Shown here: piece after piece, positions 2,119 through 32,429 of the stretch | How the letters are laid out: each line of letters starts with the position of its first letter | How positions within the stretch are numbered: the first letter of the stretch is position 1 | DNA from: a virus | Strand: one strand, 5' to 3' | Length of the DNA stretch: 35,880 nucleotides | IMG/VR virus record: IMGVR_UViG_3300030098_005816 | Location: 1-35,880 of that record | Notes under the pieces: model-generated | Told to the model about the DNA's origin: nothing | Seen by the model: the letters and a program-made list of their open reading frames with translations, nothing else | The model's database searches: none | Program-made: the position numbers and the translations under genes

Positions 2119-2301
2119 ATGGACTTTTGCGATAAATGCGGTAAAGATATAGATGTTTTAGAACCATGCTTAAAACTTCAGTATGGATTTGTTAATGATG
2201 ATGGCTCATATGGAGAAATGGGTTATATATTAATTCATGTAGACTGTTTTAATGATGTAGATGCATTGACTAAGATATTAGACGCATTTCAAAAAAACTA
2301 A
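2119..2301 (+). CDS. Small Cys-rich protein, possible zinc finger, 60 aa
   Basis: The N-terminus is MDFCDKCGKDI, a C-x2-C-G knuckle, with later C17 and an H-V-D-C (H40, C43) that could complete a zinc site. The upstream sequence has only a weak purine stretch. This is the last + strand gene; its stop TAA (2299-2301) overlaps the stop of the giant - strand gene (2298-2300), so the two transcription units converge with no spacer. Confidence 0.6.
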   Translation: MDFCDKCGKDIDVLEPCLKLQYGFVNDDGSYGEMGYILIHVDCFNDVDALTKILDAFQKN

Positions 2302-5300
2302 TCTTCTAATTGAGCCTTTAAAGATTCAGCATTATTATAAGTAGGATGATAACTCATCTCTTTTTTAAGCTTAGCTCTTTCACCTTGAATATCACCGTAA
2401 GGAATCCCAGTAAACTTTTCTATAGTTCTATAAGGGTTATCTAAAATATTACCTTTAGCCCAAGGTGATATATCTCTTGCAACCCTACCAAATGGAAATA
2501 AAGTATATAAATGATAATCAAAGAATTTATTATAGTTATCATCTGTTAAAGTTTTTAACATACTTATAGGTCCTCTAGTAATAGGAGGAGTTATAATTTG
2601 AAGAGGGGCTATAGCAGTAGGATAAGTACCCCAAAATGCTCTATTCCTAGTATTTTCATCACCAAATAACCATTCAGTAGTTTCTTTAAAATGATTTAAA
2701 GGAGCTGGTATAGCATTATCAAATAAACTCATAGCAAATACACTACCAAGAGAGTATACAAGTAAATCTATTTGTGCTGTTCTTTTAAACTTTTCATATT
2801 CTGGAGTACCTTGACGATAACCCCTTATACGAGCTTCTCTTATAACATCATTTCTAAATCTAGCAGAGTTCCAAGACCATAATTGGAAACGTGTCATTAC
2901 TTTACCAAGAGCTGTTCTGGAAAAGGCTGGACGACTAGGAGCACTGTATAAGAACTGTGTAGCTTTTACACCTTTCTTAGCCATTTCAATTAAAAATGGA
3001 TGGTCATGCTGAGTTATAGCGCCACCAAACATTTCCCAAGCTTTAATATAATGAGCCATAAAAGCATCTCTTCTAAGGGCCATTTCAGGTATCGACATAG
3101 ATTTAGCAGCAATTTCTAATAAACGAGAACCTACTTTATGTTTATCAGCAAGCTCTCTTAAAGTATTTTTATCAACTTTACCTTCATTAGTAATACGTTT
3201 AGTTAAATCAGTTAAGAAATTTTTAGACTTTGCACTTTGAAACTCTTTTTGCATACCCCATTCATTAGATAACATTTCAGGAAAAATACCCTGTTTAATA
3301 ACAAAATCTAAAATAGCTTGATTACTAGTCCATTCTGGATTAATTGTTCTTAAAAAATTATAATCTCTAGCTTTCTTTAATGCAGTAGCACCTGCACTTT
3401 GAATGGTATGCATAGAACCACCAAATAGGTTATTTATCATAGATTTAGGGTGTGCTAATAAAGACATTAGTTCATATTTAGCTTCAAGATTAGACCATCT
3501 TGCAATATCCTGAACACTAAACTTGCCCATACCTGGAATATCTTCTTTTAACCCAATCTTTTTAGCAATTTTATTTACTCTATCTCTAACTTTATTATCA
3601 GCCCACCAAGCATAAGGAGTACCTTTAAGCTTCATACCTGGGTCATTAATCATATAATCAGGTATAATACTAGGGTGGCCCATAGCATCTTGTACATAAA
3701 GCTTATAATGGTCAGCCCATCTATCTTTTAAACTTCTACCTGTTTTATGGTCAAATTCAACTTTATCCCATCCCTTTTTAAAAGCCATTTGGTCATAATC
3801 AACAAGAATATCTCTTGATAATATTTGTGCTAATTGTTTATAATAAGTTTTAAATATATTTCTAGAATAAGTTTCAGCTACAGTAGCGTCAATAGACCAA
3901 CCTGGGATATGGCTTGTTCTTTGTCTCATTGAACCTGTCATTTGGTTAGCTTTAAACCAAGTAACATTATCAGTATTTTTTGTTTGAGCTCTCATAGGGT
4001 CAATTGTAGCATCATAAGCTTCCCAATTTTCAGTACCAGTAATCCAATCTCCAGTTAAAGTTTTTGTACGCCACTGAATTTTTTCAAGCTCTTTTTGTTT
4101 TTCAGAATTAGGCAAATTAGATTCGTAAATAGTTTTAGCAGCTTCTCTTAATGCTTTAGTAGCTAAACCTTTATCAAAAAACATGTGAGGCCAGTATCCT
4201 TCTTTTATTTCGCCAGTAGATTCTGGTAAATATATTTCTTCTCTAAGTTTTTTTCTAGATTTAAACCTTTGTTTTTTAACATCATGAAGCTTTATCATCA
4301 TAGAACGTGCAATTTGTCTTAACCCGTCTATACCAAATTCAGTTGTTATATCTTCACCTTTTTCATAAGCTTTATATATATCTTTTACAAATCTTTTATA
4401 ATCATATATAGCTTCCATAGGTTTTTCTCTACCAGCAAAGTCAGCAAAATCATAATAATCCCAATAAAGTTTTTCACCTTTTTTATTCCTTAAATGATAA
4501 GAATCTAATAACTTTTTATTACCAGATATAATATTATGCATCTTTTTAAAATGACCTTTGTATATACCTTCAATTTGCTCTACTAATTGCTCACCAGAAA
4601 CTTCAATACGTTTTAACGTCTCAGGAGAAGTTATTCTGTACATATTTCTTTTGATGTTATTATAATCACTATCCTTTACTTCTTTATTATATTCTTTTAG
4701 ATAATTATTAGCCCATTGTTTACTTAGTCTTTTATCAGAAGATAAAAGTTTACTTATATTACCGTCTCTTTCAATCTTTCTAACAGCTATACGTCTAAAT
4801 AATTCACCTTCTGGTAAAGAATCTAAAAACTCTAATTGCTTTCTAAGAACACCAACTTCCTCTTCACCTTTAGCTTGAGCTTTATCCATACTTAAAGTAA
4901 CGGCATGTTGCAATTTCTCTGAAAAATTACTAGGTATTTGCATGTCACCAGCTGAAACTTCTCCTGCTTTTGTGACAAATAAACCTCTCTTCTTTAACAA
5001 TTCTATGTCATATTTCATAGATTCTCTACCTATAGTAAGAGGAAACATGTATGTATATCTTTTTTTAAGAGTAGGCTTTTTATCTCCCCATAATCTTTGC
5101 CATATAGTACCTCTTTGAAGCTCTTTAAAGTAATTATTTAAATCTATAAAATCCTTATAAGATAAAGCATTAAAATCTTTACCTAATATACCTCTAACAA
5201 CCTCATTTAAATTTTGTCCTATTTTACCATTATAAAACTTTAAATGCTCCACTAATTCAGTAAGTTGTTGTTTAACTTCTTTTGGCATCTCTTTTTTAGT

Positions 5301-8300
5301 GCCTTTACCATGTAATCCTTCATATCCTGTAGTAGTGTCTTCAAGTATAGTATTTTCAGGTAAATCCTTTTCTACCATTTCACCTTTTTCAATATTTTCA
5401 GCAAATTTATTATCAGGTTTAACTCTTTCATATGCCTTGTTCATTATATTAGCATAATCTCCAATAAAATCAACAACACTAGCTTTATCAACACTTTTAG
5501 ATGATAGGCCTAGTTTACTTATAGAAGTTTCAGTTGTACCATCTCTAAATGTACCTAACATAAGCATATCAAACATTTTTTGAGCTCTATTATTAGGAAG
5601 CGTTGCTTTAAAATTAGCTATTTCAGCATCTATTTGAGCCTGGTCTAATGTAGAACTTCTTTCTTTGCCTTTAGGAGGTTCTAAACTACCAAAAGCTTTT
5701 CTAATAGCTTTTTCTCCACTTTTAGGAACTTTAATTCCATCAATTTCACCTACAGAATCTTCTTCGCCTATACCTTTTCTTTGTAAATAGCTATTACGCC
5801 TTAAATCACTAACTTTTTTTAGTATTTTCTGAAATAATACAGGCCCTATATCTTTATTATTATAAAAACGATAAACCTGTCTAAATGAAACCATATCACT
5901 AACGTCTTGAGTCAGTATATCTTCAGAGAATTTAACAAACTCTTTTAGTAAATCTTTTCTATATTCTTCACTATTTATAACACGAGATTTATTCCTGCCA
6001 CTAATTTGTGAATGTCTTGCATTGCCTTTTCTCCAAGGACTACCTTTTGATGCCATTATTTTGTTAAAGTCTTTTATATTAGTTATGTGAGCAGTTTTAT
6101 CTAAAACGCTTTTTTTCCATAATCCAGAACTAGCTACAGCCCTTACAGCATCATTAAAAGGGACTTCTAAGTTTTTTAAAAGAGCCTTAAACTCAGGAAA
6201 GCTTTCTACAACTTTATTATGCTCTTTATACATTTGAAATAAAAATGGTACATTTATATTCTTATAAGGACTATCGTATAAATCAACTGTATTAGCTAAC
6301 TTACCTATTTTAGTCAACATAGAATTTTGAGCTTTTTCTAAACCTAAACCTTTGTTATTATTAAAATGATTTGTCTTAGATTTTATTTCTTGAGCATTCC
6401 AAGATTTATTATTAATATAATCTCTTCCATATAATGCCGCATTTGTTTCAAACAATTGACCTATTACACTATGCCTGTCTCTTAAAATGTTATAGTTCTC
6501 ATTTGTTAGTTTAATATTCTTCCCATCAATCTTTACTTTAAAATAAGCGTTACCTAATTTAGCTGCATAATCAGCATAACCTCTTAAACCAGCAACGTCT
6601 AACGGGTCAGAAGTAAATGCAATCATAGAAGAAGCTAATTGTCTTGCATTTTTTAATTCAGTTTCATTAGTCCTTGCTTCTATAGATATTTCTTGTTTAT
6701 AAGGTTTTTTACCATAAGCAGCTTTTACCATTCTAAAAAAATTATCTTGTTTATTAGGCAATTGTAAAATAGAATTGTGAGCAGACTTTAATACTTGAGT
6801 CATACTTACTGTCCCACCAAGTAAATTACGACCTTCAACTGCTCTTTCAGATATATCTTGTCTCCATTGACTGTCATATTGCCAAATTTTACTGTCCCTA
6901 GCCTCAGGGTCAATACCTGTATCTTTTAAGCTATCTTGAGTTGTTAAATACTCTTCGTAAGTTGTTTTCCCTTCTTTAAATTCTTTTTTAATTGTTTTTT
7001 TTAATTCATTTAATTTTTTTTGTAAATATTTCCAAGTTTTAGGTGCTTCAGTTTTTAATTGAGCTCTACCAGTACCAAACCCATCTTCTGGGAGAACTAT
7101 AGTTTTACCCTTAGGAATAGTGGCAAAAGCTTTATCTATAGCTCTTATATTAGAATCGTATTCTTTATCAGTCATAAATTCTTTTGGACTTTTTTTAGTT
7201 GGAATACCATGAGCATTAGGTTCGTCTCTTATTACAGCTTGACCAGCTCTAGGTCCTCTTCCAATCTTTGCTAAATTATCGCTAAACAAATAAATTTTAT
7301 TTGGATTTGCTTTTAATGTTTCAGGAGTATACCATGGCACAGTTTCTATTTTTACAAGTTTTTTACCCTTTACTTCTACAGGAACAAAGCCTTTCTTTCT
7401 ATCAGGGATAACACCATCCTTATCTAAATATTCATCTTTATTTTCATGAAACTTGTCTATCCATTTCTTTTTAAATCCACCACCTTTTGCTCCTTCTCTA
7501 CCAGCAAAAAATATAAAGGCCTCATCACCATCAAGGTCAGCACCACCTTCAGCTCTCATAGCTCTTGAATGCATTAGTATACCATGGCCATTTCTTTCTG
7601 TAAATCCACCAAATTTCATACGTTGAGCACCACTAACAGAGTCCATAGGAACACGTACTGTTAATGCTGTTAAAGCGTCTTCTGCTTTCTTTAATTCTTT
7701 GCCTTTTAATTCGCCTGATTCATATGCTTTCCAAAGTCTTTCTAAAGTAGTGTTTTCGTGGCCAGAAACGGTTGTTTTAAGCGGCATTTTTTTAAATGAG
7801 TTATCTAGATAGAATATCTCATCATTTGTCTCTAATTCTTTAAATCTGTCATCTTTTCTAAACCACTTATCATAACCTCTCATTCTAGCTACACCACTGT
7901 TACCAATTTTAGGCTTACTAAGTGATTGAAATACATAGTTTCTTATAACTTGAAATCTATAAGGCCTTATATATTTATGTAATAATACAGTATTTATATT
8001 GCCAGGTCTACCAGCTAACTTTTCACTTTGAGACCAATCTTTTGCAGCTTCTACAATCCTGTCTGTAGAACTGTTAAATTCGTTTATATTATCAAGTATT
8101 TTCTCTCCCTCAGCGGCAGTTATTTCACCTTCTTGAACTCTAGAAGCAACATTATCTCTATTTATCTTCATTAAACGCATATAAGCTATGTCTGTAAACT
8201 CAGTAGGTGTACCATTTATTGCATTAAGTAAATTATCCATACCTAGTTTATCAACATTCTTTTCTAATATATTTAATAATACTTTAGACTCAGGGTTTTC

Positions 8301-11300
8301 TACATACTCTTTATATACCTCATTAATTTTAGAATCACCTTCATACTTCTTATACAAAGTTTCATTAAAGAAATCTTCAATTAGTTTCTGAGAAAATGGT
8401 TTATGAGTATTCTGAGCCATTGCCATTAACAACTGCTTAGGTATACCGTGTCTATGAGTACTACCATCAGGATTATAACCTGCCATAGTATTTGATTGTT
8501 TTACATTGTATCCATATTTTATATTTTCTAAAGGCATTTCATATATTAAATTAGGGTCATCTATTATTAATTCATCTTTTTCAATTTTATAATCAGTTAT
8601 TTTACGTTCACCTCTTTGTTTAACAGCTGATTCTTGCATAATCATTTGTATACCAGCTTTACGCATTTGTCTGGAAGCTTCTGGTCCTGCACTATGCATC
8701 ATATGTTTACCAAGTAATGCACCATTTTCAGCATCAGGACTAACAATAAAATTTTTACTTTGTCCACTCTCAGGTAACCCACTATCTTTAATTAGAGAAT
8801 TAAGATAGTTATCTTCAACAATAGTCATACCATCTACATTTTCGCCATACTCAGTATTTTTGCTATCTTTATTTAGTTTTTTAATTCTTTTAAGCTTATT
8901 TTTTACTAACTTAAATAATTTAGGGTCTAAATCTCTTGCTATTATATACCTTACATTACCATTTTCTACAGCATTTAAAAAATCTTCACTAACATTATTT
9001 CTTTCACCTTGTTTTAATTTAGATAAATATTCCCCATAGTGATTTGCTACAAAATCTTTATCAGCTTTCCATGTTGGAGTAAACCATATTTGTTGACGCT
9101 TATTCCAAGCTGTAGCATTTTTAATGTATCCCTCGCCTTCAAATAGTCGTTTTAAAACCTTTGAATATTCAGTAGCTGTTTTAGGTTTAAATCCGTTTAA
9201 AGAAATATCCCACATTATATTATTTAAATACATTTCCCTAGCTTCTTTTTGAGAAAAGTATTTATTTCTTTTTAAAGCATCGTTAAAATATTTTGCATTT
9301 TTACCTTTAGATAAATAATTCTGTAAAAAGCTATTAATATAATACAATTTAGGTCCATTATTCATATCTGGGTGCTTCTTAATATATATTATAGTATCAT
9401 TATCACCTTTACCTCCAAAAGGATAAAAACCTTTTTTCCACATATCTTTATGCATTTTTTTTATAAACTTATTATATACTTTTATTCCATCATCTTTAAA
9501 TTCTTTTATTAAATGCTTTCTATATTGACTAAGTGTTAAATCTTTAAATTCTCCTTTTGTACCTCTTACAGTAATATTGTCAAATACATAATGAGAATCT
9601 GGTCTATTAGGACTATCAGGTGATATATTTAACATCTCTTCTAAAGCTCTTTGTACTTCCATCTTAGGCTCTATATTTTGCTTCCTATTACCAGCTAAAG
9701 TAAAACCATCTTCTCCTCTTATTTGGATTTTAATAGACTTAGATTTAGGGTCAGCTCCAGAAACATTCAAATATTTTACTGGTTCACCAAAATTCTTACG
9801 AGTTAACCATTGTCTAAAGTTATCCTTTGTTGCTTCATCTATAGTTATATCAATATTTTCTTTATCTTTTAAAGTAGACTCTATTTCTCTAACAAGTTCT
9901 TCAGTATTTACTTTTTGATTTTTTCTACTATATTTTTCTTGTTTAACTATACTGTCTATAAAATTAGTTAACCTAATAACTTCATTTCTTTTAGTAGAAG
10001 GACTAAACGAAGGTTTATCCCAAATTTCTTTTAAATTATCTTGAACAAAAATTTCAGACTTTCTAAATAAATCCATATTAGATAGCATTCCAATATCATT
10101 ACCATCATTAACTCTTTCTTCTACTCTAATTTCCCCTGTTTCTTTATCAATAAATTCATAAGGATTTAAATCAAGAAGTGTTTTTTCTTTTGCTTTTAAT
10201 TTACTAAGTTCACTTTTTAAAGCTTCTAAATTTTGTTCTTCAATTATCCTATCTGCACCACCAAGTTTATCTAATTTCTTTTGAGATTTAACTATATCAT
10301 CAGTTAATGTAGCCTTCTCTTCGTATAGTTTATTTAACTCCTTTTCAGTGTCTCTAGCTAAACCAGTACGAGCTTTTTCTAGAGATACTTCTTCAGTCAT
10401 TTTTACATATCTTTCCCAACCTTTTTCTGAAAGTTGAGTTTTATCAGGCTCAATACCCATTTCTTTTGCAATTATTTCTTGCATTGCAGTTTTTGTTTCT
10501 GGGTCAGGATTATAATGAACACTTTTAGGGTCATTCATTTCTTTTCTTATAGCCTCTTTATATTCAGGAGCAAGTTCACTCCATCCTTCAACAAGAGTAG
10601 GGTCTTCTGTGGCTCTTAATTTATAGTTGGCTTTTTTATTACCAGTACCATAAGCCTCTTTTTGCATTTTAGTAAAAAATTCTTGCTTTGCTTTTTGTAC
10701 ATGACTTACAGCTCCACCACCAAAGTATGCACCAAGTAAATATTCATATACTTGTTCGGGAGTAGTTGCTCCTCTTTGTGTAGCAGGTAATCCTTGAAAT
10801 ATAGAACCAGCAATGGCTCTTTGAGCATATGCTAATTTACCTCTGCCAGGTATTATATTACCTAAAGCACCAAATGCGGCACCAAATTTTACTCCACCTA
10901 AACCAGCTTCAATCATACCATCTACACCTTGTTTCCAGTTACTTACAGCACTAGCAACACCAAGTTTAAATCCTTCTTCTGCAACACTTTTTGTAGCTCC
11001 AGAAGTAAGGAATTTAGCAACAACACCAGAAGCGTCTGCTCTTCCTCCTAAAGCTGTTTTCATTACAGGGCTTATAACTTTTGATATTTTCTTAGTAGCG
11101 TATTCACCTGCTCCTAAAGGTATAGACCTTATACCACCTAAAGCATTAGCAGCTCTAGTTAGTCCAAGTAGTTTTAATGGTTTAGCCATCATATTAGGAG
11201 CAAACCCTAATAAATGTCCTACATTACGTGCTATTGCTTCATATTCATTATCAGGTGGGTCTACAGCACCAAGTGTTGTAAAACCTTCTAATAAACCACC

Positions 11301-11558
11301 TCCAAATTGCTTTAAAGCTTCGCCAATGCTAAACTCACCTTCATAAAAGCCTACATTATGATAAATAGCATGCTTTTTTATCTTGTCTATAGCTTCTTGG
11401 TTATATCTTTTGGGGTTTTGTTTGTATCCACTAATCAGTCTTTTTAATTGTGATTTAGAATACTGAGGTTTAAAGTCAGCTTGAGTAGCTGCTTTATCAC
11501 CTTGTGGTTGTTCTGGTTGTTGACTATAGTCGTATAAACCATAAGGGTTTACAGCCAT
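2298..11558 (-). CDS. Giant internal virion protein with RNA-polymerase-like motif, 3086 aa
   Basis: Starts at ATG 11556-11558 with AGGAG at 11565-11569. Visible layout: residues about 80-290 are Gly/Ala-rich and hydrophobic, as in ejected phage proteins; about 400-465 is a coiled coil; F-G-G-K-G-D-N-D lies near 710; D-G-M-T-I at 909 with lysines at 951 and 980; R-x-P-x5-G-x-Q to A-D-L-D-G-D at 1302-1345; a separate small domain at about 1405-1515; a hydrophobic segment near 2931-2955. The A-D-x-D-G-D signature is the metal-binding core of the multisubunit RNA polymerase beta' chain and of single-chain relatives such as the crAss-like phage virion polymerase. Last gene of the late operon, behind three ejection-protein candidates. 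Virion location and polymerase activity are inferred; a large polyvalent ejection protein without polymerase activity is the alternative. Confidence 0.8.
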   Translation of the reverse strand: MAVNPYGLYDYSQQPEQPQGDKAATQADFKPQYSKSQLKRLISGYKQNPKRYNQEAIDKIKKHAIYHNVGFYEGEFSIGEALKQFGGGLLEGFTTLGAVDPPDNEYEAIARNVGHLLGFAPNMMAKPLKLLGLTRAANALGGIRSIPLGAGEYATKKISKVISPVMKTALGGRADASGVVAKFLTSGATKSVAEEGFKLGVASAVSNWKQGVDGMIEAGLGGVKFGAAFGALGNIIPGRGKLAYAQRAIAGSIFQGLPATQRGATTPEQVYEYLLGAYFGGGAVSHVQKAKQEFFTKMQKEAYGTGNKKANYKLRATEDPTLVEGWSELAPEYKEAIRKEMNDPKSVHYNPDPETKTAMQEIIAKEMGIEPDKTQLSEKGWERYVKMTEEVSLEKARTGLARDTEKELNKLYEEKATLTDDIVKSQKKLDKLGGADRIIEEQNLEALKSELSKLKAKEKTLLDLNPYEFIDKETGEIRVEERVNDGNDIGMLSNMDLFRKSEIFVQDNLKEIWDKPSFSPSTKRNEVIRLTNFIDSIVKQEKYSRKNQKVNTEELVREIESTLKDKENIDITIDEATKDNFRQWLTRKNFGEPVKYLNVSGADPKSKSIKIQIRGEDGFTLAGNRKQNIEPKMEVQRALEEMLNISPDSPNRPDSHYVFDNITVRGTKGEFKDLTLSQYRKHLIKEFKDDGIKVYNKFIKKMHKDMWKKGFYPFGGKGDNDTIIYIKKHPDMNNGPKLYYINSFLQNYLSKGKNAKYFNDALKRNKYFSQKEAREMYLNNIMWDISLNGFKPKTATEYSKVLKRLFEGEGYIKNATAWNKRQQIWFTPTWKADKDFVANHYGEYLSKLKQGERNNVSEDFLNAVENGNVRYIIARDLDPKLFKLVKNKLKRIKKLNKDSKNTEYGENVDGMTIVEDNYLNSLIKDSGLPESGQSKNFIVSPDAENGALLGKHMMHSAGPEASRQMRKAGIQMIMQESAVKQRGERKITDYKIEKDELIIDDPNLIYEMPLENIKYGYNVKQSNTMAGYNPDGSTHRHGIPKQLLMAMAQNTHKPFSQKLIEDFFNETLYKKYEGDSKINEVYKEYVENPESKVLLNILEKNVDKLGMDNLLNAINGTPTEFTDIAYMRLMKINRDNVASRVQEGEITAAEGEKILDNINEFNSSTDRIVEAAKDWSQSEKLAGRPGNINTVLLHKYIRPYRFQVIRNYVFQSLSKPKIGNSGVARMRGYDKWFRKDDRFKELETNDEIFYLDNSFKKMPLKTTVSGHENTTLERLWKAYESGELKGKELKKAEDALTALTVRVPMDSVSGAQRMKFGGFTERNGHGILMHSRAMRAEGGADLDGDEAFIFFAGREGAKGGGFKKKWIDKFHENKDEYLDKDGVIPDRKKGFVPVEVKGKKLVKIETVPWYTPETLKANPNKIYLFSDNLAKIGRGPRAGQAVIRDEPNAHGIPTKKSPKEFMTDKEYDSNIRAIDKAFATIPKGKTIVLPEDGFGTGRAQLKTEAPKTWKYLQKKLNELKKTIKKEFKEGKTTYEEYLTTQDSLKDTGIDPEARDSKIWQYDSQWRQDISERAVEGRNLLGGTVSMTQVLKSAHNSILQLPNKQDNFFRMVKAAYGKKPYKQEISIEARTNETELKNARQLASSMIAFTSDPLDVAGLRGYADYAAKLGNAYFKVKIDGKNIKLTNENYNILRDRHSVIGQLFETNAALYGRDYINNKSWNAQEIKSKTNHFNNNKGLGLEKAQNSMLTKIGKLANTVDLYDSPYKNINVPFLFQMYKEHNKVVESFPEFKALLKNLEVPFNDAVRAVASSGLWKKSVLDKTAHITNIKDFNKIMASKGSPWRKGNARHSQISGRNKSRVINSEEYRKDLLKEFVKFSEDILTQDVSDMVSFRQVYRFYNNKDIGPVLFQKILKKVSDLRRNSYLQRKGIGEEDSVGEIDGIKVPKSGEKAIRKAFGSLEPPKGKERSSTLDQAQIDAEIANFKATLPNNRAQKMFDMLMLGTFRDGTTETSISKLGLSSKSVDKASVVDFIGDYANIMNKAYERVKPDNKFAENIEKGEMVEKDLPENTILEDTTTGYEGLHGKGTKKEMPKEVKQQLTELVEHLKFYNGKIGQNLNEVVRGILGKDFNALSYKDFIDLNNYFKELQRGTIWQRLWGDKKPTLKKRYTYMFPLTIGRESMKYDIELLKKRGLFVTKAGEVSAGDMQIPSNFSEKLQHAVTLSMDKAQAKGEEEVGVLRKQLEFLDSLPEGELFRRIAVRKIERDGNISKLLSSDKRLSKQWANNYLKEYNKEVKDSDYNNIKRNMYRITSPETLKRIEVSGEQLVEQIEGIYKGHFKKMHNIISGNKKLLDSYHLRNKKGEKLYWDYYDFADFAGREKPMEAIYDYKRFVKDIYKAYEKGEDITTEFGIDGLRQIARSMMIKLHDVKKQRFKSRKKLREEIYLPESTGEIKEGYWPHMFFDKGLATKALREAAKTIYESNLPNSEKQKELEKIQWRTKTLTGDWITGTENWEAYDATIDPMRAQTKNTDNVTWFKANQMTGSMRQRTSHIPGWSIDATVAETYSRNIFKTYYKQLAQILSRDILVDYDQMAFKKGWDKVEFDHKTGRSLKDRWADHYKLYVQDAMGHPSIIPDYMINDPGMKLKGTPYAWWADNKVRDRVNKIAKKIGLKEDIPGMGKFSVQDIARWSNLEAKYELMSLLAHPKSMINNLFGGSMHTIQSAGATALKKARDYNFLRTINPEWTSNQAILDFVIKQGIFPEMLSNEWGMQKEFQSAKSKNFLTDLTKRITNEGKVDKNTLRELADKHKVGSRLLEIAAKSMSIPEMALRRDAFMAHYIKAWEMFGGAITQHDHPFLIEMAKKGVKATQFLYSAPSRPAFSRTALGKVMTRFQLWSWNSARFRNDVIREARIRGYRQGTPEYEKFKRTAQIDLLVYSLGSVFAMSLFDNAIPAPLNHFKETTEWLFGDENTRNRAFWGTYPTAIAPLQIITPPITRGPISMLKTLTDDNYNKFFDYHLYTLFPFGRVARDISPWAKGNILDNPYRTIEKFTGIPYGDIQGERAKLKKEMSYHPTYNNAESLKAQLED
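7014..7346 (-). other. Embedded small phage domain (F-x-D-N-L / R-D-E-P-N-A-x-G-I-P-T-K type)
   Basis: Residues about 1405-1515 of the giant protein carry the string F-S-D-N-L, G-R-G-P-R-A-G-Q-A-V-I-R-D-E-P-N-A-H-G-I-P-T-K, and later P-E-D-G-F-G-T-G-R-A-Q-L. I recognise this as the pattern of a small free-standing phage protein family of unknown function (I believe the Pfam DUF7831 group, from memory). Here it sits about 60 residues after the D-x-D-G-D motif, as an insertion in a giant protein. Confidence 0.55.
7524..7655 (-). other. RNA polymerase beta'-like catalytic region in giant protein
   Basis: Residues 1302-1345 of the 3086-aa protein. The order R1302-x-P1304-x5-G1310-x-Q1312, then G-x-I-x2-H1330, then A1340-D1341-L-D1343-G-D1345 matches the cellular beta' order R-A-P-T-L-H-R-L-G-I-Q, then A-I-Q-L-H-P, then A-D-F-D-G-D with the same R-P-G-Q spacing, and the His-to-first-Asp distance differs by one residue. 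In polymerases the three aspartates hold the catalytic magnesium. A calcium EF-hand is unlikely: position 6 is Glu, not Gly, and position 12 is Ala, not Glu/Asp. Confidence 0.65.
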
Positions 11559-11561
11559 AGA

Positions 11562-12494
11562 TTACTCCTCGTTAGATGTAAGACTTGTGCCTATATCTTT
11601 TGCTAGACTTAAATAAACTGCAGCATTTACAATTTTTCCTACAGGAACACCTCTAATTTTAAGATTTGATAAATTTTTAATCATGTCCTTACCTTTTGTT
11701 TTCCAACCTTTTGGAGTTGTAACTTTACTTTTTTGTTGAGCCCTATAGTCTTTTGCAAATTCTTTTTTACTTTGACGTTTACTTCTATCGCCTTTATAAT
11801 TTTGTTGGTATTTTCTATATGCTTCATCTATTTGTGCTTTTTTTACATATACTCTAGGAGATTTAGGTTTAGGTTTAGCACTTCCAGGTTTCATATAGTT
11901 ATAAGCACCTTTTGCTCCTCTATATGTTCCATATGCACCAGCTCCTAAAGCTCCTGCGCCTAAAACAGTAGTTAATAAAGGACTTTCTCCTGGCATTTCC
12001 ATTATATCTTCACCAATATTTTTCCAATAATCAGTAAATGTTTTATCTTTTGTTAAATAAGGAGCTAGTAAATCTTGTGTTTCAGGGTCTGCATTTAACA
12101 TAACTTTCTGCAATTTAGCTATAGCATCTTCATTTCCCTTTAAAGACTTTTTAATATCTCTAGTTTTTATACCTAATGTAGCAGCTGAATTTATAAGTTT
12201 AGTTATTTTATTATTATCATAGTCTTTTACTAGTTTGTAATTTTCTAAAAATTGTGTATAGTTAGGCTTTAATCCCTTTGATATAGCTGCGTCACTATAT
12301 TTTTTCCAAAGAGAATCTGAAGACTCAAGTACATGTGTTGGGAAATTTATAGCTTTATTTGTTGTATCAATAGAACCTGGATTATCTCTAACTTCTTTAG
12401 TTACTTTAGTCCAAAAGTTCTCATCTAATTGATTAGTTCTTAATTGTCTATAATCTTGCCATTTTTGGGCTCTTTCTTCAAAAGGATAACTCAT
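11562..12494 (-). CDS. Probable ejection (internal virion) protein, 310 aa
   Basis: ATG 12492-12494 is chosen over an upstream in-frame ATG at 12512 because GGAGGA lies just before it and because it forms a TAATG junction with the preceding gene's stop. The N-terminal 165 residues are charged and helical; about residues 170-200 form a Gly/Ala-rich hydrophobic stretch (T-V-L-G-A-G-A-L-G-A-G-A-Y-G) able to enter a membrane; the C-terminus is very basic. No sequence family recognised. A helical body with a glycine-rich hydrophobic segment, just ahead of the giant protein, fits proteins that podoviruses eject to form a channel across the envelope. That role is inference. Confidence 0.6.
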   Translation of the reverse strand: MSYPFEERAQKWQDYRQLRTNQLDENFWTKVTKEVRDNPGSIDTTNKAINFPTHVLESSDSLWKKYSDAAISKGLKPNYTQFLENYKLVKDYDNNKITKLINSAATLGIKTRDIKKSLKGNEDAIAKLQKVMLNADPETQDLLAPYLTKDKTFTDYWKNIGEDIMEMPGESPLLTTVLGAGALGAGAYGTYRGAKGAYNYMKPGSAKPKPKSPRVYVKKAQIDEAYRKYQQNYKGDRSKRQSKKEFAKDYRAQQKSKVTTPKGWKTKGKDMIKNLSNLKIRGVPVGKIVNAAVYLSLAKDIGTSLTSNEE

Positions 12495-13255
12495 TATTCC
12501 TCCAACCACCAATTTGTTTGGTCTTGATATAAATTATTAGCATCTACCGCATTCTTAAAACCTTGTACAGAATAAGGGTTTACTGTAGGTTGATTTAAAG
12601 GTGGAGTTTGCATTAAATCAGTACCAAAGTCATAGTTATATTGATTAAACGAATCTTGCCCTGTAGTTCTACCTTCTTCATTCCATTTCATTAAAGCGTC
12701 TTGAATTTCTGTTTCATTAGCATCTTCACTAATACCTAATTGTTCTGCTTCTGACTTCATCCAAGTTGGAAATTCAACTAACTTTGGAATATCTAATTTA
12801 ACAGGTTTTTGGCTGTCTAACCAAATCTTATTCCACATATCAGTATTTAAATTAGGAACAGGTCTAGGGCTAGGTATTTCTTCCTTAGGTAAACCTCTTA
12901 ATAAACCTCTTAATTGAGATTTCTTTATATCCATCTCATCTTTTAATCTACCAAATCGTCTATCAGACATTCCTCCTTGAAATAAACCTTCATCATCAAT
13001 CATTTTTTTATTTATATTTGAGGGTATATTAGTTATAAAATCAAGCAGTGATTTTCCTTTATTAAACACGCCTTCTTTTACATCTCCAACCTTATCAATA
13101 ACACCACCACCAAAGCCTTTTGCTTTATCATATCCTTCTTCTATCTTACCCCAATTTTCTCCTGCTAATTGACCTAAGTCAAAACCAGCTTCATTTACCA
13201 TTTGGTTTCTTACTAAATTACGAGCTAATAAAGGTGAAAAATCTATTCTAGCCAT
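12494..13255 (-). CDS. Probable ejection (internal virion) protein, 253 aa
   Basis: Joined to both neighbours by one-base overlaps. The N-terminal part is Gly/Lys/Asp-rich (G-Y-D-K-A-K-G-F-G-G-G-V-I-D-K-V-G-D-V-K-E-G) and reads as an amphipathic helix; the C-terminal half is Asn/Pro/Trp-rich and low in helix. No recognised domain. Position between two similar structural candidates and the late promoter-like element at 13993 suggests an internal virion or tail-tip component. Evidence is positional. Confidence 0.55.
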   Translation of the reverse strand: MARIDFSPLLARNLVRNQMVNEAGFDLGQLAGENWGKIEEGYDKAKGFGGGVIDKVGDVKEGVFNKGKSLLDFITNIPSNINKKMIDDEGLFQGGMSDRRFGRLKDEMDIKKSQLRGLLRGLPKEEIPSPRPVPNLNTDMWNKIWLDSQKPVKLDIPKLVEFPTWMKSEAEQLGISEDANETEIQDALMKWNEEGRTTGQDSFNQYNYDFGTDLMQTPPLNQPTVNPYSVQGFKNAVDANNLYQDQTNWWLEE

Positions 13256-13974
13256 TATTTATCCTCTCCTGGAGTACCACCAGTTTTCATTAAATACTCT
13301 AATAAACCAGCTCCCATTCCGCCCATTGCATCACCAAAGTTAATCGGCATACTTGCTAAATCTCTTTCTGTTTGATATGCACCATATTGTTGATAGCCTT
13401 TACCTGCTTCACCCATCAAACCAATTCCTTGATTAAGTCTTTTTCTAAGCATTTCATTAATCATGTTTTGAGTTTGAATGTTCATACCAGCTAAATTAGA
13501 CTCTCTTTTTTGTCCTAGTATACCACTGTATCCACCAACTCCACCTTGCATTATATTTCTATTATTCATCATACTTGTAAAAGCGGCTGAATCTTTAGAT
13601 AAATTCCTTATCCTTGTAGCTTCATCAAGATTTACCTGTGAATTTGGGTCTGTGTAATCTGCACCTAAATCAACTTGTTTATCTAAAGTAGATTTCCATG
13701 GAGCCATATTATCTTCTAAAGTAGGTTGGTTTTTGCCTTTATCTAAATGTTGAGCAAGCAAAGGCCCTCCAAATTGAAGTGCAAGACCCGCAACTTGAGG
13801 CCAAAAATATTCTTTCATACCTGTTTTTGGATTAGTTGTTCCAGAACCCATACTTTGAGTAGCAACTTCACCTAAAAGGCCATAGTTATCTATCCAATGA
13901 GCTTCTGTGTCATTAACATGAGAAGGTTCTCCTCCAACGTTTCTTATTTGCGTATCTCCATACCTACCGTGCAT
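13255..13974 (-). CDS. Probable internal virion/structural protein, 239 aa
   Basis: ATG 13972-13974 has AAGGAG at 13981-13986 six bases upstream; the TTG just before it is rejected. The N-terminus (G-D-T-Q-I-R-N-V-G-G-E-P-S-H-V-N, then G-S-G-T-T-N-P-K-T-G) resembles an N-terminal motif I know from phage structural proteins near ejection genes. A hydrophobic stretch follows (V-A-G-L-A-L-Q-F-G-G-P-L-L), then Gln/Asn/Met-rich helices and a Gly/Met-rich tail. First gene after the putative promoter, so probably heads the ejection module. Exact role unknown. Confidence 0.6.
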   Translation of the reverse strand: MHGRYGDTQIRNVGGEPSHVNDTEAHWIDNYGLLGEVATQSMGSGTTNPKTGMKEYFWPQVAGLALQFGGPLLAQHLDKGKNQPTLEDNMAPWKSTLDKQVDLGADYTDPNSQVNLDEATRIRNLSKDSAAFTSMMNNRNIMQGGVGGYSGILGQKRESNLAGMNIQTQNMINEMLRKRLNQGIGLMGEAGKGYQQYGAYQTERDLASMPINFGDAMGGMGAGLLEYLMKTGGTPGEDK

Positions 13975-13992
13975 CAAAAACTCCTTTAACTT

Positions 13993-14042: not shown

Positions 14043-15176
14043 TTATCCTGCATCTGCAGCTCCTGTTGGATTACTTAATGAATACCAATGTGTTCCATTA
14101 CAATAAAGTGTATATCCTCCATAACCAACAACTCTTTCATCACTTCCTGATGTTAAATAAATCTTTTGATGTGAACCTACTGCAGGACTTTCATTGTGTT
14201 CTAATTGTATAAAGTTTGCTGTATCTGTTTTGACTATATATAAAATTTGTCCTGCTACACCACCACTAAACCCGCCTATAGTTACATTATTACTTGAAGT
14301 ATCTACTTCTAATACTGTAGTATCTGATACATCAATACCATCTGTAGGTCCTGCCGTAGTAAATGCAGTATGTTTATATGATACAGTACCATCTACGTCA
14401 AGTTTAGTAGTAGGACTTGCAGTACCTATACCTACATTATCGCCATTACTACCATTAAGTATTAAATCGCCATCTGCTTGTAATTCTAATTCAGCACCAC
14501 CTGTACCAACATAAGTAATAAAAAAACCACTATCATTACTATTATTATTAAAATACATATCTACATCATCGTGAGCATTTGTAAATGTTATTCCTGATGT
14601 AGCACCACCTGTACCTGTTAAATGTAATAATGTTTGAGGATTTGTAGTACCTATACCTACATTATTTGTAGGAGATAAGATAACATGTCCAGTAGATTCT
14701 AACTTTAAATTACCCCAAGCTTTTACAGATGGAGTTGCTACTGAAGCTGTTGATATTTTAGTAGGGTCTAAATTAAGTGTTAATCTATCATTTCCTTGGT
14801 ACCCATAATCTATTTGCCCGCTAGTCATATTAATAACTGGAGGGTCATTTAATGGAGCTGATTTGTTTAAAGGGCCAAATGAGGCATTATTATCTTTATA
14901 CCAACCACCTTCCCCTCTAATGTAAAATTCGTACCTATTTGGACCTATTTTGTTGATTTTTATATCACCATGCTGTCCTTTATAAGTATCAGCATCAGCT
15001 CTACTTGAAGGAGCATTTACTCTTTCAATTAAACCATTTACTTGTTCAGTTAAATGCTTAAAACCTGCATCTATATCATAATTATTATGTTCAACAACTT
15101 TTCCTAAAGTATTGAAACTAGAACTATCTTTAAGTCCTTTTGTAATTTTCTTAAATGATACAGTTTTTTTACTCAT
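14043..15176 (-). CDS. Tail fibre protein with G-I-G-T repeats, 377 aa
   Basis: Starts at ATG 15174-15176 in a TAATG overlap with the nozzle-like gene. The first about 60 residues are helical and probably anchor the fibre to the tail (H-L-T-E-Q-V-N-G-L-I-E-R-V-N). The middle contains two copies of N-V-G-I-G-T-x2-P-x2-x-L-x-V/L, a repeat common in trimeric β-helical phage fibres, 75 residues apart. The C-terminus (G-Y-G-G-Y-T-L-Y-C-N-G-T-H-W-Y) resembles a fibre tip or chaperone-like end, possibly the host-binding part. Position next to the tail protein supports a receptor-binding role. Gly/Thr/Ser/Asn-rich composition agrees. Confidence 0.75.
   Translation of the reverse strand: MSKKTVSFKKITKGLKDSSSFNTLGKVVEHNNYDIDAGFKHLTEQVNGLIERVNAPSSRADADTYKGQHGDIKINKIGPNRYEFYIRGEGGWYKDNNASFGPLNKSAPLNDPPVINMTSGQIDYGYQGNDRLTLNLDPTKISTASVATPSVKAWGNLKLESTGHVILSPTNNVGIGTTNPQTLLHLTGTGGATSGITFTNAHDDVDMYFNNNSNDSGFFITYVGTGGAELELQADGDLILNGSNGDNVGIGTASPTTKLDVDGTVSYKHTAFTTAGPTDGIDVSDTTVLEVDTSSNNVTIGGFSGGVAGQILYIVKTDTANFIQLEHNESPAVGSHQKIYLTSGSDERVVGYGGYTLYCNGTHWYSLSNPTGAADAG
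14421..14665 (-). repeat. Direct repeats in tail fibre gene
   Basis: The 20 bases at 14421-14440 recur exactly at 14646-14665, 225 bases (75 codons) apart in the same frame. They encode the N-V-G-I-G-T cores of the two fibre repeats. Conservation at DNA level suggests recent duplication or exchange of fibre modules. Confidence 0.75.
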
Positions 15177-27280: not shown

Positions 27281-27290
27281 ATTTCTCCTA

Positions 27291-27787: not shown

Positions 27788-29203
27788 TTAAGTAAACTTA
27801 ATAATACAGTGAGTTTCTGGTAAGCTGATTTCTAATCCAGCCTCAGTAATAATTTGGTCTTTTCTACCATCAACATCATTATTTTGAATGTTAGTTTCAA
27901 TGAATGTGTCTCTGCTTATACCATTACCAGCTAGTGGTCTATAAGCAACATTACCCATATCAACTGCAACACAATAGTCTTCCCATGGACCTCTTAATAA
28001 AGGTTCAGCAACAAAGTGTAAGTTACCAAAAATAGTATTTACCATTGTTACAGTATGACCAAATGCACCTTTAATATTTTGCACATCTAATCTATATTGA
28101 GAAGAACCAACTGTATTGTTTAAGAAAGAGCCGTTACCCATTTTATTCAAATAAGTAATTACTTTTCTTGAAGCTAATACAAGTTTGTTTCCACTATTTC
28201 CACTTTCAGGTGCAAAGAAATCTTCCATTGCATCTAAGAAAGCGTCATAGCCTGAAGAAGCATAACTCATTGTATATACTTTACCAAACGATTCAGTATA
28301 AGGAACTATACCATGTGAGTATCTAACAGGACCTGATGTAACACCTTGCTCATCGACTGTACCACCAGCGGCACCTCCGTTAGCAGAACCAATTCCAAAA
28401 AGCATTGAATGCTCAATGTCCATTTTGTGTTCCATTAATTTATCAGTCCAAATACGTTGAAACTCATTTGAGTTACCTCTATAACGAGTCGCTAAAGCAG
28501 TATTTGAGAAAAGGTTCATGCCAGTTTTAAAAATCTGACAATATCCTTCTCTATCAAATAGTGAGTCTTCCCAACCGTCTGGGGCTGTTCCACCCTCACC
28601 ATATGCTGTTCCAATTACTTGGATATTAGCACCAGCTGCAACTACTACATCTGTACCATCAACTGGCCAGTTGTCTCCAACAAATTCTACTCCTGATTCA
28701 ACAGTAGCAGATTCGTCTCTAACTAAAATATTAGTTTCAGTTGCATCTGTGGCATTATCTAGGTAGTCACCAGATTTAATTCTAAATCTTCGTACTACAC
28801 CATCATTACATGCTACAGCTAAAACATCGCCACCTTTTAAAAATTTAGGTTGTTTTCCTGTTGCAGATATTCTACCATATTCATCATAGTATACCTCAAC
28901 AGCAGCTGCTACATCGCCACCAGTGTCATTTAATGTTGGAGGTGTTCCAGCATCCAATGTAAATGTCCAGCCATCAACAGCTTTCATATTTTTACGTTGC
29001 CATTGATGTCTTTGTTCTAAGAATTTAAATACAGGGTCGTCTGTCATTTTTTTCGCTACTTTGCTTAAGTATACAAAAAATGGACTTTGCTGAGGAGCAA
29101 GCTCTGCAACACGTTCTCCAAAATTAAACAAACGTCTACTATCATTGATAGAGACTGCGCTTTGGACAGCGTTACCTGCATTTGGTGAATAAAAATTCGC
29201 CAT
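27788..29203 (-). CDS. Major capsid protein, 471 aa
   Basis: The length, order after portal and scaffold, and Gly/Ala/Asn-rich mixed α/β composition fit a major capsid protein of the HK97-type fold. The N-terminus R-R-L-F-N-F-G-E-R-V-A-E-L-A-P-Q-Q-S-P-F is a helix like those I know from uncultured marine phage capsid proteins, and the ending (P-W-E-D-Y-C-V-A-V-D-M-G-N-V-A-Y-R-P-L) fits an axial domain. ATG 29201-29203 has GGAG upstream. Name rests on position and resemblance. Confidence 0.8.
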   Translation of the reverse strand: MANFYSPNAGNAVQSAVSINDSRRLFNFGERVAELAPQQSPFFVYLSKVAKKMTDDPVFKFLEQRHQWQRKNMKAVDGWTFTLDAGTPPTLNDTGGDVAAAVEVYYDEYGRISATGKQPKFLKGGDVLAVACNDGVVRRFRIKSGDYLDNATDATETNILVRDESATVESGVEFVGDNWPVDGTDVVVAAGANIQVIGTAYGEGGTAPDGWEDSLFDREGYCQIFKTGMNLFSNTALATRYRGNSNEFQRIWTDKLMEHKMDIEHSMLFGIGSANGGAAGGTVDEQGVTSGPVRYSHGIVPYTESFGKVYTMSYASSGYDAFLDAMEDFFAPESGNSGNKLVLASRKVITYLNKMGNGSFLNNTVGSSQYRLDVQNIKGAFGHTVTMVNTIFGNLHFVAEPLLRGPWEDYCVAVDMGNVAYRPLAGNGISRDTFIETNIQNNDVDGRKDQIITEAGLEISLPETHCIIKFT

Positions 29204-29269
29204 TGTTTATCTCCGTTTCATTTTGTACCCTCTCTCAGCTGTCGCGTAGACCTTCGAGTAGGATTTTAA

Positions 29270-30172
29270 TTACCAAGGGTTATTTTTTTTATAACCTTCT
29301 ATTATCGAGTTCATAATTCCATCCTCTGCACTTCCTTGAGGGTCATTCTGTTGAGAAGGCAAAACTCCCATAGGAGACGGAACCTGTTGAGCTCTAGCTT
29401 GTTGATTAAACGTATCGCTAGGGCCAGATTGCGTTTGCTGTTCTGGTTGACCTGTTCCCTTCTTAAGTCTATACAAAGAGACTAAATTATCCATTGATAA
29501 TGAATCTGGAGTTGACATTGTGTTTACAAAATCAGCTGCTTCTTCTTGGCTTAATCCATATTGTCCTTGTACCTGATTATACACTCCATTTAACTGTTGT
29601 CTTTGAGCGGCAATAGCTTCATTTCGTTGTATTTCTTGAACTCTTTGAGCTCTTTCATGTTCTAATTGTTCAGATATAAGAGCAGTTTGATATTCGCTTT
29701 TGTAAGCATTGTATTGTATCATCTGGTCTCTCCATGCTTCAGTATCATTTAAATACCTTGCACTTGCACTATTTGGGTCTTCCATCGCTTCTGCTCTGGA
29801 AAATCCAGCTGGCGCTTCAGGTTTAACTGGAGGTTCAGGAAACTGTTCTACATTTTGCTCTTGCTGCTGAACAGGAGCCTGTGTATTGGCTTGCTGTAAA
29901 GCACCTTGCATTTGTTGAACTTGTTGCCTTAAATTTGCATTCTCATTAGCTTCTTTGTTAGCTTGTGATTGCCAAAATTCAAATCTTTTAGCATCATTTT
30001 TAGCTTGTACATCATCAACTTGAGGCTGCTCTGTAGAAGGTGTCCTTGAAGGAGCTTCTGTTCCAGTTTCTGGTGTTTCGGTATTACTAAAAAACGCTTC
30101 TTCTACCGATAATTGTTCAGAGCCCTGAGGTTCAGGGGTGTCTGTATTGTTGGTTGTTTCTAGTGCGTCCAT
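29270..30172 (-). CDS. Scaffolding protein, 300 aa
   Basis: ATG 30170-30172, preceded by GGAAAAG. The product is acidic at the N-terminus (Glu/Thr/Pro-rich), has a long Gln/Asn-rich coiled coil at about residues 60-110 and a second helical part at 145-210, and ends in a short helical tail. Lying between portal and capsid, with low complexity and strong helix content, it fits a P22-type scaffolding protein that binds the coat during shell assembly and leaves later. No protease motif was seen, so a cleavage role is not supported. Confidence 0.75.
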   Translation of the reverse strand: MDALETTNNTDTPEPQGSEQLSVEEAFFSNTETPETGTEAPSRTPSTEQPQVDDVQAKNDAKRFEFWQSQANKEANENANLRQQVQQMQGALQQANTQAPVQQQEQNVEQFPEPPVKPEAPAGFSRAEAMEDPNSASARYLNDTEAWRDQMIQYNAYKSEYQTALISEQLEHERAQRVQEIQRNEAIAAQRQQLNGVYNQVQGQYGLSQEEAADFVNTMSTPDSLSMDNLVSLYRLKKGTGQPEQQTQSGPSDTFNQQARAQQVPSPMGVLPSQQNDPQGSAEDGIMNSIIEGYKKNNPW

Positions 30173-30202
30173 TTTCTTTTCCTATTTTTAGCTGCCTCTA
30201 TG

Positions 30203-32374
30203 CTACTTAGAGGGTGAGCTTTCTTTTTTAGTTGCGTCTTTTATTTGACGCTTAACTGTAGCGAGATTATCATCGAGCCTTTTTTCAAACAAGACGCCAG
30301 CAGATTCAGTTTTGTTTTTAGTTTTATCAAGTTGTGTTTTAAACTTCTCGACTTCAACTTTCTTACGAAGATTGACTGCTTCTCTATCTCTAGTTTGCAA
30401 GTCTCCTTCAAGTTTCTCAATCTGCTCTTGTTGTTGTTTAATCATGCCTTCCATTTGAGCAATCTGGTCAGTTCTTTGCATTACACCTTCCATATCAAAG
30501 ATTTCTGTTTTCTTAAGAACTTCTTGTTTATCTACTAACCCTTTAGAGTAAGCATCTAAATAGAACTCAAGTTCAGCAAATCTATTAGTAGGTAATGTAC
30601 TACCACTGACTACGACCACATCATATTTTCCGATTGTTATATCGTTAAAAATTTGTAATTCTCCAGTTTTATCATCATATAGTCTTTTATTAACTACATA
30701 TTCATTCATAGAGTTATTTGGATTAACAACTCTAAATGTTTTTTCTATACTATACAATTGTTGCATTAAAGGTATAGCTACCTGACCTACTCTTACTAAA
30801 GCTTGTTCTATGTCAGTTAATTTAGATTTAATCTTTCTTTGACCAAATTCATCAAGAGCTATAGTAGCTTTATATGTTTGAGGTGCTGAAGCAGAATTAC
30901 CGCTCATCATTTCATATAAACCTAAAGCATGGTCAATATCATTTTTAGCTGTAGTTTCATTACTGTATAATTCGTTAGGTAACGGACTAGGCTGTACTGT
31001 TACTGGAGCACCATCAGTAGGGTCATAAGGTATAGCAACACCAGGCTGTGCCCATTTTTCTTCAAAGTCTTTCATATCTACACTACCTTCAGGAACTAAT
31101 ATTTTAGTATTAGTACTTGTAGTAGCGTGAGCAATAATTAAAGAACGAGTTTTATTTATATATTCTTGTAATCCTTTTACCATTCTTACATCAGATGTAG
31201 GATAAGGAGTCCTAGTATGTAAATTACACATAGGAACTATAGGGTATTGGTCAATAGGTAAAATTCTTTCATATAGAACAGTCTCTCCAATTATAACACA
31301 TTGTTTAATTCTTGTAACAGATATATGAACCGTTTGAATAAGCTGTTTCATAATTAAACCTTGATAATCAGTTTGCTCTATTTGAGGAGCAGGAATATCA
31401 GGTTCAGGAACTTCAGCATCAGCACCAAGGCCAATTTGAGCCATTTGCTGAGAATCCATATCTCTTTTTTGTTGTTTTTGCATTTCCCATTGTTGCATTA
31501 ACTGAGATATTAATTGTTGAGCTTGCGTTTCATCAACTACAACTTGTCCTTGTATTATCCAAGCTGGTCTTTTTATATATTGGTTAAATTCTTCTTCATC
31601 GAGTAATTCTTCTTTTTTGCTAAATGTTTCAAATGTTCTTATTTTTTTAACATCTATTTTATAATATCTTTCATAACCTCTTACATATTCACTTTGTTCA
31701 TGCAATAAACCTACATCTTCTGGGAAGAATACTTTATTGTCGTTATCTCTTGCGGTTTCTGGTGCATTAAAGTCTTGCTCTCCAGATGCATCATCTATTT
31801 CTTTTTTGTATTTTGGATATAATTTTTTAGCTTGTTCTCTACTAAATAAACGAGAGACTATTATATTTTCTGCATCGTCAAAAAACTTGTGTCTAGAATT
31901 TGGGTCTACATATACATCAAGAGGGTCTATATCGTGCATACAAACTTCACCTTTACCCATATCCATCATAGGGTCTTGATATATATTAATATATCCTACA
32001 CCCATTACATAATAATCATCAATAGCTTGTCTAATAACACTTCTACCATCAGATATATCATACATATAAGAAAGTAATGCGCTCATTACATTAGCTACTT
32101 TTCTATCACTATCTTCTCTTGGGGAACATCTAAAAGACGGTCTATTAGCAGTAAGCATTGCTTTTGCTGTTTCTACTGCTGGATGTATTCTATTAACAAC
32201 AATAGGAGCTTGACCTCTAGCTTCTAACGTTTCTGCTTGGTCTTTAGTCCATTGCCTACCTAAACGAAATTCTTTATCTTCTTTAGCCTGTTTAGCCCAA
32301 GCATCTCGTTTTTTGCTATAGTCCTTATATAACTGTATCGTAGTATCTACGACTTTGTTGTCCTGTTTATCCAA
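30203..32374 (-). CDS. Portal protein, P22-type, 723 aa
   Basis: Starts at TTG 32372-32374; no in-frame ATG is near and an AGG lies seven bases upstream. The protein has the layout of P22-like portals: a charged N-terminus, the wing/clip region with A-M-L-T-A-N-R-P-S-F, a D-P-L-D-V-Y-V-D-P-N-S segment, then helical stem and crown. The last about 90 residues are a coiled coil (M-E-G-M-I-K-Q-Q-Q-E-Q-I-E-K-L). A Gln/Met-rich insertion (Q-Q-L-I-S-Q-L-M-Q-Q-W-E-M-Q-K-Q) sits near residues 280-330. It would form the dodecameric ring at one vertex through which DNA is packed and ejected. The gap before it holds a candidate promoter. Confidence 0.85.
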   Translation of the reverse strand: MDKQDNKVVDTTIQLYKDYSKKRDAWAKQAKEDKEFRLGRQWTKDQAETLEARGQAPIVVNRIHPAVETAKAMLTANRPSFRCSPREDSDRKVANVMSALLSYMYDISDGRSVIRQAIDDYYVMGVGYINIYQDPMMDMGKGEVCMHDIDPLDVYVDPNSRHKFFDDAENIIVSRLFSREQAKKLYPKYKKEIDDASGEQDFNAPETARDNDNKVFFPEDVGLLHEQSEYVRGYERYYKIDVKKIRTFETFSKKEELLDEEEFNQYIKRPAWIIQGQVVVDETQAQQLISQLMQQWEMQKQQKRDMDSQQMAQIGLGADAEVPEPDIPAPQIEQTDYQGLIMKQLIQTVHISVTRIKQCVIIGETVLYERILPIDQYPIVPMCNLHTRTPYPTSDVRMVKGLQEYINKTRSLIIAHATTSTNTKILVPEGSVDMKDFEEKWAQPGVAIPYDPTDGAPVTVQPSPLPNELYSNETTAKNDIDHALGLYEMMSGNSASAPQTYKATIALDEFGQRKIKSKLTDIEQALVRVGQVAIPLMQQLYSIEKTFRVVNPNNSMNEYVVNKRLYDDKTGELQIFNDITIGKYDVVVVSGSTLPTNRFAELEFYLDAYSKGLVDKQEVLKKTEIFDMEGVMQRTDQIAQMEGMIKQQQEQIEKLEGDLQTRDREAVNLRKKVEVEKFKTQLDKTKNKTESAGVLFEKRLDDNLATVKRQIKDATKKESSPSK

Positions 32375-32383
32375 TAGTTTGCC

Positions 32384-32429
32384 TAGTTTTTATCAACTTA
32401 ATATACAACTTAAAGGGTCATCCAATCAA
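32384..32429 (-). promoter_or_regulatory. Candidate late promoter and conserved 31-bp element, copy 1
   Basis: On the - strand the block TTTA, 2 nt, TTGTATATTA, 2 nt, TTGA, 2 nt, AAAACTA (32384-32414) sits between the large terminase and the portal and covers the terminase stop codon. It holds a -10-like TATATT (32400-32405) with TTGATT (32424-32429) 18 bases upstream. The copy at 13993 shares 25 of 31 positions. Would drive the portal-capsid-tail genes. Confidence 0.5.

Follow-up and report, generated by a model that had tools for sequence, protein, structure and literature searches.

The late operon of the phage studied here ends in a gene for a protein of 3,086 residues carrying a short motif that resembles the catalytic loop of the bacterial RNA polymerase subunit beta', and this raises the question of whether the phage makes an RNA polymerase of its own and where such an enzyme would act. 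The window, that is, the whole stretch of 35,880 nucleotides that we analyzed, represents 35.9 kb out of a 36.8-kb virus record, which belongs to an uncultured phage with a genome of ~50 kb. The ORF list and the composition of the window showed that the reading frame is intact, with 3,086 codons encoding a protein of ~353 kDa with a pI of 9.3. Its parts are listed with the other features of the window in Table 1.

Table 1. Features of the window that bear on the giant protein.
Feature	Window positions	Strand	Basis
Giant protein, 3,086 aa	2298..11558	-	Late operon's final gene; ORF, composition
N-terminal region, residues 1-769	9252..11558	-	Family conservation, hydropathy
Predicted polymerase core, residues 770-1720	6399..9251	-	AlphaFold2 model, Foldseek, conservation in 32 relatives
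Putative DPBB-A, residues ~868-1015	8514..8957	-	Model strand pattern, invariance 72/72, gp66 alignment
Putative DPBB-B, residues ~1221-1355	7494..7898	-	Model strands 1221-1355, hhalign block 1190-1352
Catalytic signature R1302-x-P ... A-D1341-L-D1343-G-D1345	7524..7655	-	Sequence, invariance 71/71
DUF7831 domain, residues 1408-1514, after DPBB-B	7017..7337	-	Pfam PF25176, E 9.5e-29
Candidate bridge helix, residues 1563-1598	6765..6872	-	One long model helix, conservation, low-confidence gp66 alignment
Conserved SSMIAFTSDPLDVAGL, residues ~1642-1658, candidate trigger-loop side	6585..6635	-	Conservation, low-confidence gp66 alignment
C-terminal region, residues 1721-3086	2301..6398	-	Mostly helical; conservation, poor model
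Three consecutive ORFs (316, 253, 240 aa), no cysteine	11562..13977	-	Composition
Head module: SU10-type major capsid, P22-like portal, terminase large subunit	27788..33903	-	Pfam, PHROGs

The minus-strand late operon encodes the terminase large subunit, the portal, the capsid protein, a metallophosphoesterase, a 2,572-aa protein, four smaller ORFs and, as its last gene, the giant protein, in agreement with the initial annotation, which took it for the final late product. The same annotation described the head genes as P22-type; this holds for the portal, which is P22-like (also phrog_156), but not for the capsid, which is of the SU10 type (Pfam matches of the head genes: PF17236, E 1.1e-27; PF16510, E 6.4e-67; PF17289, E 5.4e-7). 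A plus-strand block, in which we found a weak PD-(D/E)XK nuclease match, converges on the giant gene. In a 51-kb relative, the plus-strand early block encodes ThiF, an AAA ATPase and a DnaB helicase with a primase domain. The ThiF-family gene of this relative lies beside a possible JAB-domain gene that falls below the Pfam cut-off (L203:2379-4190, plus strand), and the pair possibly serves ubiquitin-like conjugation or counter-defence.

Three other features of the late strand were noted. The 2,572-aa protein (window 15176-22894, minus strand) is a second giant late protein, with 16 cysteines and no Pfam or PHROG match. Just upstream of the capsid gene (window 29229-29264, minus strand) lies a near-invariant 30-nt leader, CTACTCGAAGGTCTACGCGACAGCTGAGAG, whose core occurs in 29 IMG/VR contigs with a homologous capsid gene downstream wherever the ORF is long enough to compare. 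The leader forms a predicted hairpin with two compensated pairs in the closing stem; it has no match in Rfam and is possibly a new RNA regulatory element. Between two late genes there is also a GC-rich hairpin, GGGGCC ... GGCCCC (window ~27290-27312, minus strand), with similar sequence in relatives.

The catalytic signature, RVPMDSVSGAQRMKFGGFTERNGHGILMHSRAMRAEGGADLDGD, lies at residues 1302-1345 (window 7524-7655, minus strand), exactly where it had been reported, and reads R-x-P-x5-G-x-Q ... G-I-L-M-H ... A-D-L-D-G-D, with ADLDGD at 1340-1345. Comparison with E. coli beta' (NP_418415) bore out both distances given in the initial annotation: the spacing of R-x-P-x5-G-x-Q is the same (RVPMDSVSGAQ versus RAPTLHRLGIQ), and the distance from the His to the first Asp is off by one (11 versus 10 in E. 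coli). Across all six reading frames, the window has the pattern [AN]D-x-D-G-D just once. AD-x-D-G-D arose in 57 of 20,000 shuffles of the giant protein, so this piece is weak on its own; conservation is the real test of the motif.

A single sequence recovered 6 loci of the family from IMG/VR, a first alignment 40, and a wider alignment at least 199. Because the search that yielded 199 members used GGADLDGD as one pattern, we first assessed conservation with the 40 loci, which had been gathered with patterns excluding the motif and from which a 32-member alignment was built. All three aspartates are present throughout this alignment (DLDGD in 31 members, DLDAD in one). They are also kept in 71 of 71 informative relatives from a non-redundant set of 72, one of which ends before the motif, in answer to the question, raised in the initial annotation, of whether homologues conserve them. 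Columns at least 97% identical account for 20 of the 44 in the motif, compared with 55 among the 950 of the entire core. R1302 and P1304 of the beta'-type motif, together with K1041 and Q1042, are likewise invariant wherever sequences reach, in the 32 core-aligned and the 72 non-redundant relatives. The Q of G-x-Q, which had been counted as part of the motif, did not hold up: 35 relatives have H at this position and 30 have Q, and because H stands there about half the time, Q is not a defining position. The residues proposed for the first barrel had been rated weak, but they are well supported by the invariance of D909, G910, K935, K951 and K980 in all 72 non-redundant relatives. Further downstream, R1566 and R1577 of the candidate bridge helix are near-invariant in the family alignment. 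D1651 and P1652 are kept in 68 of the 68 sequences covering them, within a conserved SDP motif (1650-1652) whose candidate trigger-loop role comes from model secondary structure and a low-confidence alignment.

Conservation of this kind bears on two other explanations. The D-L-D-G-D might resemble a polymerase by chance and be a calcium-binding or unrelated acidic loop, as the shuffled sequences alone would allow; given the invariance, the order of the motif, the fold match described below and a Pfam search that returned no calcium-binding family, we consider this scarcely conceivable. The EF-hand in particular, which the initial annotation had excluded, was rejected on fold and conservation. 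Alternatively, the giant chain could be an ejected protein in which a two-barrel fold has taken on another task, such as binding or translocating DNA with no RNA synthesis, a role that the large non-polymerase flanks and the DUF7831 insert would suit. However, the three aspartates and the expected catalytic lysines and arginines are fully invariant, and since complete invariance is hard to explain without catalysis, such a protein seems very improbable. We predict with considerable confidence that the giant protein is an active RNA polymerase.

We then examined the predicted fold. AlphaFold2, run on the alignment for residues 770-1830, gave a model with a mean pLDDT of 82.8 and a pTM of 0.78, in which the motif region and the DPBB-B strands (1221-1355) are mostly above 90. 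A Foldseek search of the PDB with this model returned as its best match the phi14:2 virion RNA polymerase (6vr4, E 1.1e-6), followed by QDE-1 (from E 7.8e-5) and then by bacterial beta', yeast polymerase I and the phage AR9 RNA polymerases. Two-barrel RNA polymerases made up 50 of the 50 PDB matches listed. Thus, the fold search that had been suggested as a check matched the model to two-barrel enzymes, with an enzyme of a crAss-like phage at the top. Against viral models, two relatives were found (E 8e-51 with a TM-score of 0.68, and E 5e-37), and many of the matches beyond them were crAss-like phage proteins. Normalized by query length, whole-chain TM-scores against solved enzymes stayed low, with none of the best matches above 0.28, presumably reflecting differences between lineage-specific domains, and rmsd values were large, so that only the core is comparable with the solved enzymes. 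The C-terminal half (residues 1895-3086) was modelled poorly, with a pLDDT of 60, and a fold search with it gave nothing at E below 0.3, indicating that the polymerase matches are specific to the core. Taken together, the models indicate that residues ~770-1720 almost certainly adopt a two-barrel polymerase fold; the putative boundaries of DPBB-A were drawn from secondary structure.

The fold could also be that of a two-barrel enzyme that makes or copies something else, for example a DNA polymerase resembling PolD or a QDE-1-like enzyme that reads RNA templates. QDE-1 is indeed the second-best fold match, and PolD likewise has paired double-psi barrels, as stated in PMC10770324. But the best match is a DNA-dependent virion RNA polymerase, PolD is absent among the 50 Foldseek matches listed, and the early block of the 51-kb relative already supplies replication genes, the helicase with its primase domain. 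We therefore hold an enzyme of this type to be highly improbable and favor an RNA polymerase with a DNA template.

Sequence searches alone did not lead to this result: with the giant protein, Pfam and PHROGs recognized the DUF7831 insert and matched no polymerase model, and a PDB sequence search found no RNA polymerase. When the family profile was compared by hhalign with a second profile built from 80 gp66-type loci, residues ~1190-1352 aligned with the catalytic block of gp66 (pairwise P 2.4e-4), placing the same catalytic motif in register, which was the outcome sought when a search with gp66 profiles was first proposed. Restricted to the gp66 columns, the alignment scored 35.3, about 5 sd over 60 block-shuffled profiles (mean 20.0, sd 3.0, maximum 29.2). 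A forced full-length alignment to gp66, of low confidence, kept the order of further conserved elements: E-x-V-D-G opposite N-Q-T-D-A; K935 and K980 opposite lysines, the latter as M-R-K-A-G-I ... A-V-K980-Q-x-G opposite M-N-K-Q-D-I ... G-V-K-V-G; A-V-E-G-R-N-L-L-G of the bridge-helix candidate opposite Y-A-G-G-K-S-G-V-G; and I-A-F-T-S-D-P opposite N-A-F-V-D-N-A-K-D-P, NAFVDNAKDPYI. The single sequence of E. coli beta' gave an hhalign P of 0.23, which is not significant, yet it aligned at the same loop, as did the single sequence of P23-45 gp64, again without significance; a profile alignment of the family to P23-45 gp96 did not find the gp96 motif. A search of ten relatives for a T7-type polymerase gave no match, and neither did its control. 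Judged by these profiles, the giant-protein family is a sister of the gp66 family rather than a member of it, because the sequence homology is distant. We regard it as a new family within a kind already known, the single-chain two-barrel virion RNA polymerases; its members may already stand in the survey of viral two-barrel polymerases that accompanies PMC10770324 as Supplementary Data 4.

Measured between stop codons, the full-length giant ORFs of the family have 2,919-3,525 aa, and the relatives' contigs reach 56 kb. Outside the core, conservation is found at residues 65-290 of the N-terminal region, where mildly hydrophobic stretches lie near residues 81, 116 and 218, and is best in the C-terminal region at residues 2600-3060. 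DUF7831 stands at about the same site in a few relatives (L002, L008) and is absent from most; another relative, L032, has a DUF7831-like motif in a separate ORF, and other viruses have DUF7831 as a stand-alone protein. After the catalytic barrel, the domain is thus an optional insertion. The window and every relative examined are metagenomic. Searches by tblastn of 50,697 phage records with the core, a divergent relative and the C-terminus found no family member, and none was found in GTDB genomes. Roseobacter phage CRP-810 was considered as an isolated member and rejected, as its giant proteins have no D-x-D-x-D and no family match. The capsid protein of this phage (L209) is related and its genome is laid out in the same way, with a 2,016-aa cysteine-free protein without D-x-D-x-D in the corresponding slot.

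We then asked where the enzyme would act. The giant protein contains no cysteine in 3,086 residues, versus ~19 expected from the window's other genes. Family-wide, 118 ORFs contain 5 cysteines in 347,737 residues, and 113 of them have none. Similar compositions are seen in N4 vRNAP (0 in 3,500), T7 gp15 and gp16 (none), P23-45 gp96 (0 in 5,002) and phi14:2 gp66 (2 in 2,180). Absence of cysteine is in keeping with a chain that has to unfold and traverse the envelope. Because other virion proteins can also be cysteine-free, among them the N4 capsid protein and the CRP-810 fibre, it supports ejection without proving it. The three cysteine-free ORFs next to the giant gene were assigned no family in our search and are possible co-ejected proteins. 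By analogy, the last-late-gene position, the lack of cysteine and the short-tailed-type head genes suggest an enzyme that is packaged and ejected, and we think it likely that the giant protein reaches the cell in this way for early transcription.

The same two-barrel polymerase could instead stay out of the virion and act in the infected cell, as P23-45 gp64 does, with the flanks otherwise used. P23-45 has both virion and non-virion forms, according to PMC10770324. Against this, the giant gene ends the late operon and lies outside the early block, the chain is nearly cysteine-free family-wide like ejected proteins, and the non-virion gp64 has just 616 aa; we regard a non-packaged enzyme as unlikely. 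In our judgment the giant protein is likely to belong to the same broad class as crAss-like gp66, being a single-chain two-barrel RNA polymerase packaged in the virion. Residues ~770-1720 would form the enzyme, with catalytic lysines in DPBB-A, the metal-binding D-L-D-G-D in DPBB-B and a bridge-helix/trigger-loop region, and the flanks of ~770 and ~1,370 residues may serve head packaging and passage through tail and envelope. Made last among the late proteins, the polymerase would be packaged, ejected along with the DNA, and used to transcribe early genes off the incoming genome, from early promoters and without host RNA polymerase. Intergenic regions were inspected by eye for promoters of the giant enzyme, and none was found.

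Several known systems resemble this arrangement. N4 gp50 has a T7-type single-subunit polymerase fold, unrelated to the two-barrel enzymes. It shares with the giant protein its size (3,500 aa), the lack of cysteine, the same logic of use and the place of its gene, the last minus-strand late gene, converging on plus-strand genes. Like the giant protein, phi14:2 gp66 (6VR4) is a single chain with DPBB-A before DPBB-B and R-x-P before D-x-D-x-D, and a giant late virion protein, as ours would be, with few cysteines; it is also the best solved fold match. The two are only ~11% identical, gp66 has D-F-D-I-D in place of D-L-D-G-D, and unlike gp66 the polymerase here is set between large flanks, with a DUF7831 insert in some members. 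Genomes of crAss-like phages are ~100 kb, versus relatives' contigs of at most 56 kb with a P22-like portal and an SU10-like capsid. In gp96 of the Thermus phage P23-45, a two-barrel polymerase with D-x-D-G-D also lies within a cysteine-free giant protein, but there it is N-terminal on a long-tail tape measure protein. QDE-1 and the eukaryotic RNAi polymerases share the single-chain two-barrel fold, whereas QDE-1 is a cellular enzyme without virion flanks and ~10-12% identical. Bacterial beta' has the same R-x-P-x5-G-x-Q spacing and an NADFDGD-like catalytic loop, but beta and beta' are separate subunits, with no significant sequence similarity to the giant protein.

Fusion of a virion two-barrel polymerase to a large protein has precedents in crAss-like phages and P23-45, as PMC10770324 and PMC7886860 describe. 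Few phage single-chain two-barrel polymerases have been characterized: crAss gp66, P23-45 gp96 and gp64, and YonO. With the present family, at least 199 environmental phage contigs join this list, from genomes about half the size. The family is invisible to Pfam, PHROGs and PDB sequence searches, and its diversity makes it a useful alignment of the active site of two-barrel enzymes. Near absence of cysteine combined with the last-late-gene position may serve as a marker of ejected proteins. We lean toward the view that small uncultured phages whose head genes are of the short-tail type widely carry ejected two-barrel RNA polymerases of a hitherto undescribed family, unrecognized by sequence. 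If so, an injected multisubunit-type polymerase would be a common strategy for starting transcription, far outside the crAss-like and jumbo phages, and DUF7831, where it has been inserted behind the catalytic barrel, would act as an optional modifier of the polymerase. The phages of this family probably carry a transcription enzyme of their own into the cell, which predicts that early transcription in these phages starts without the host enzyme.
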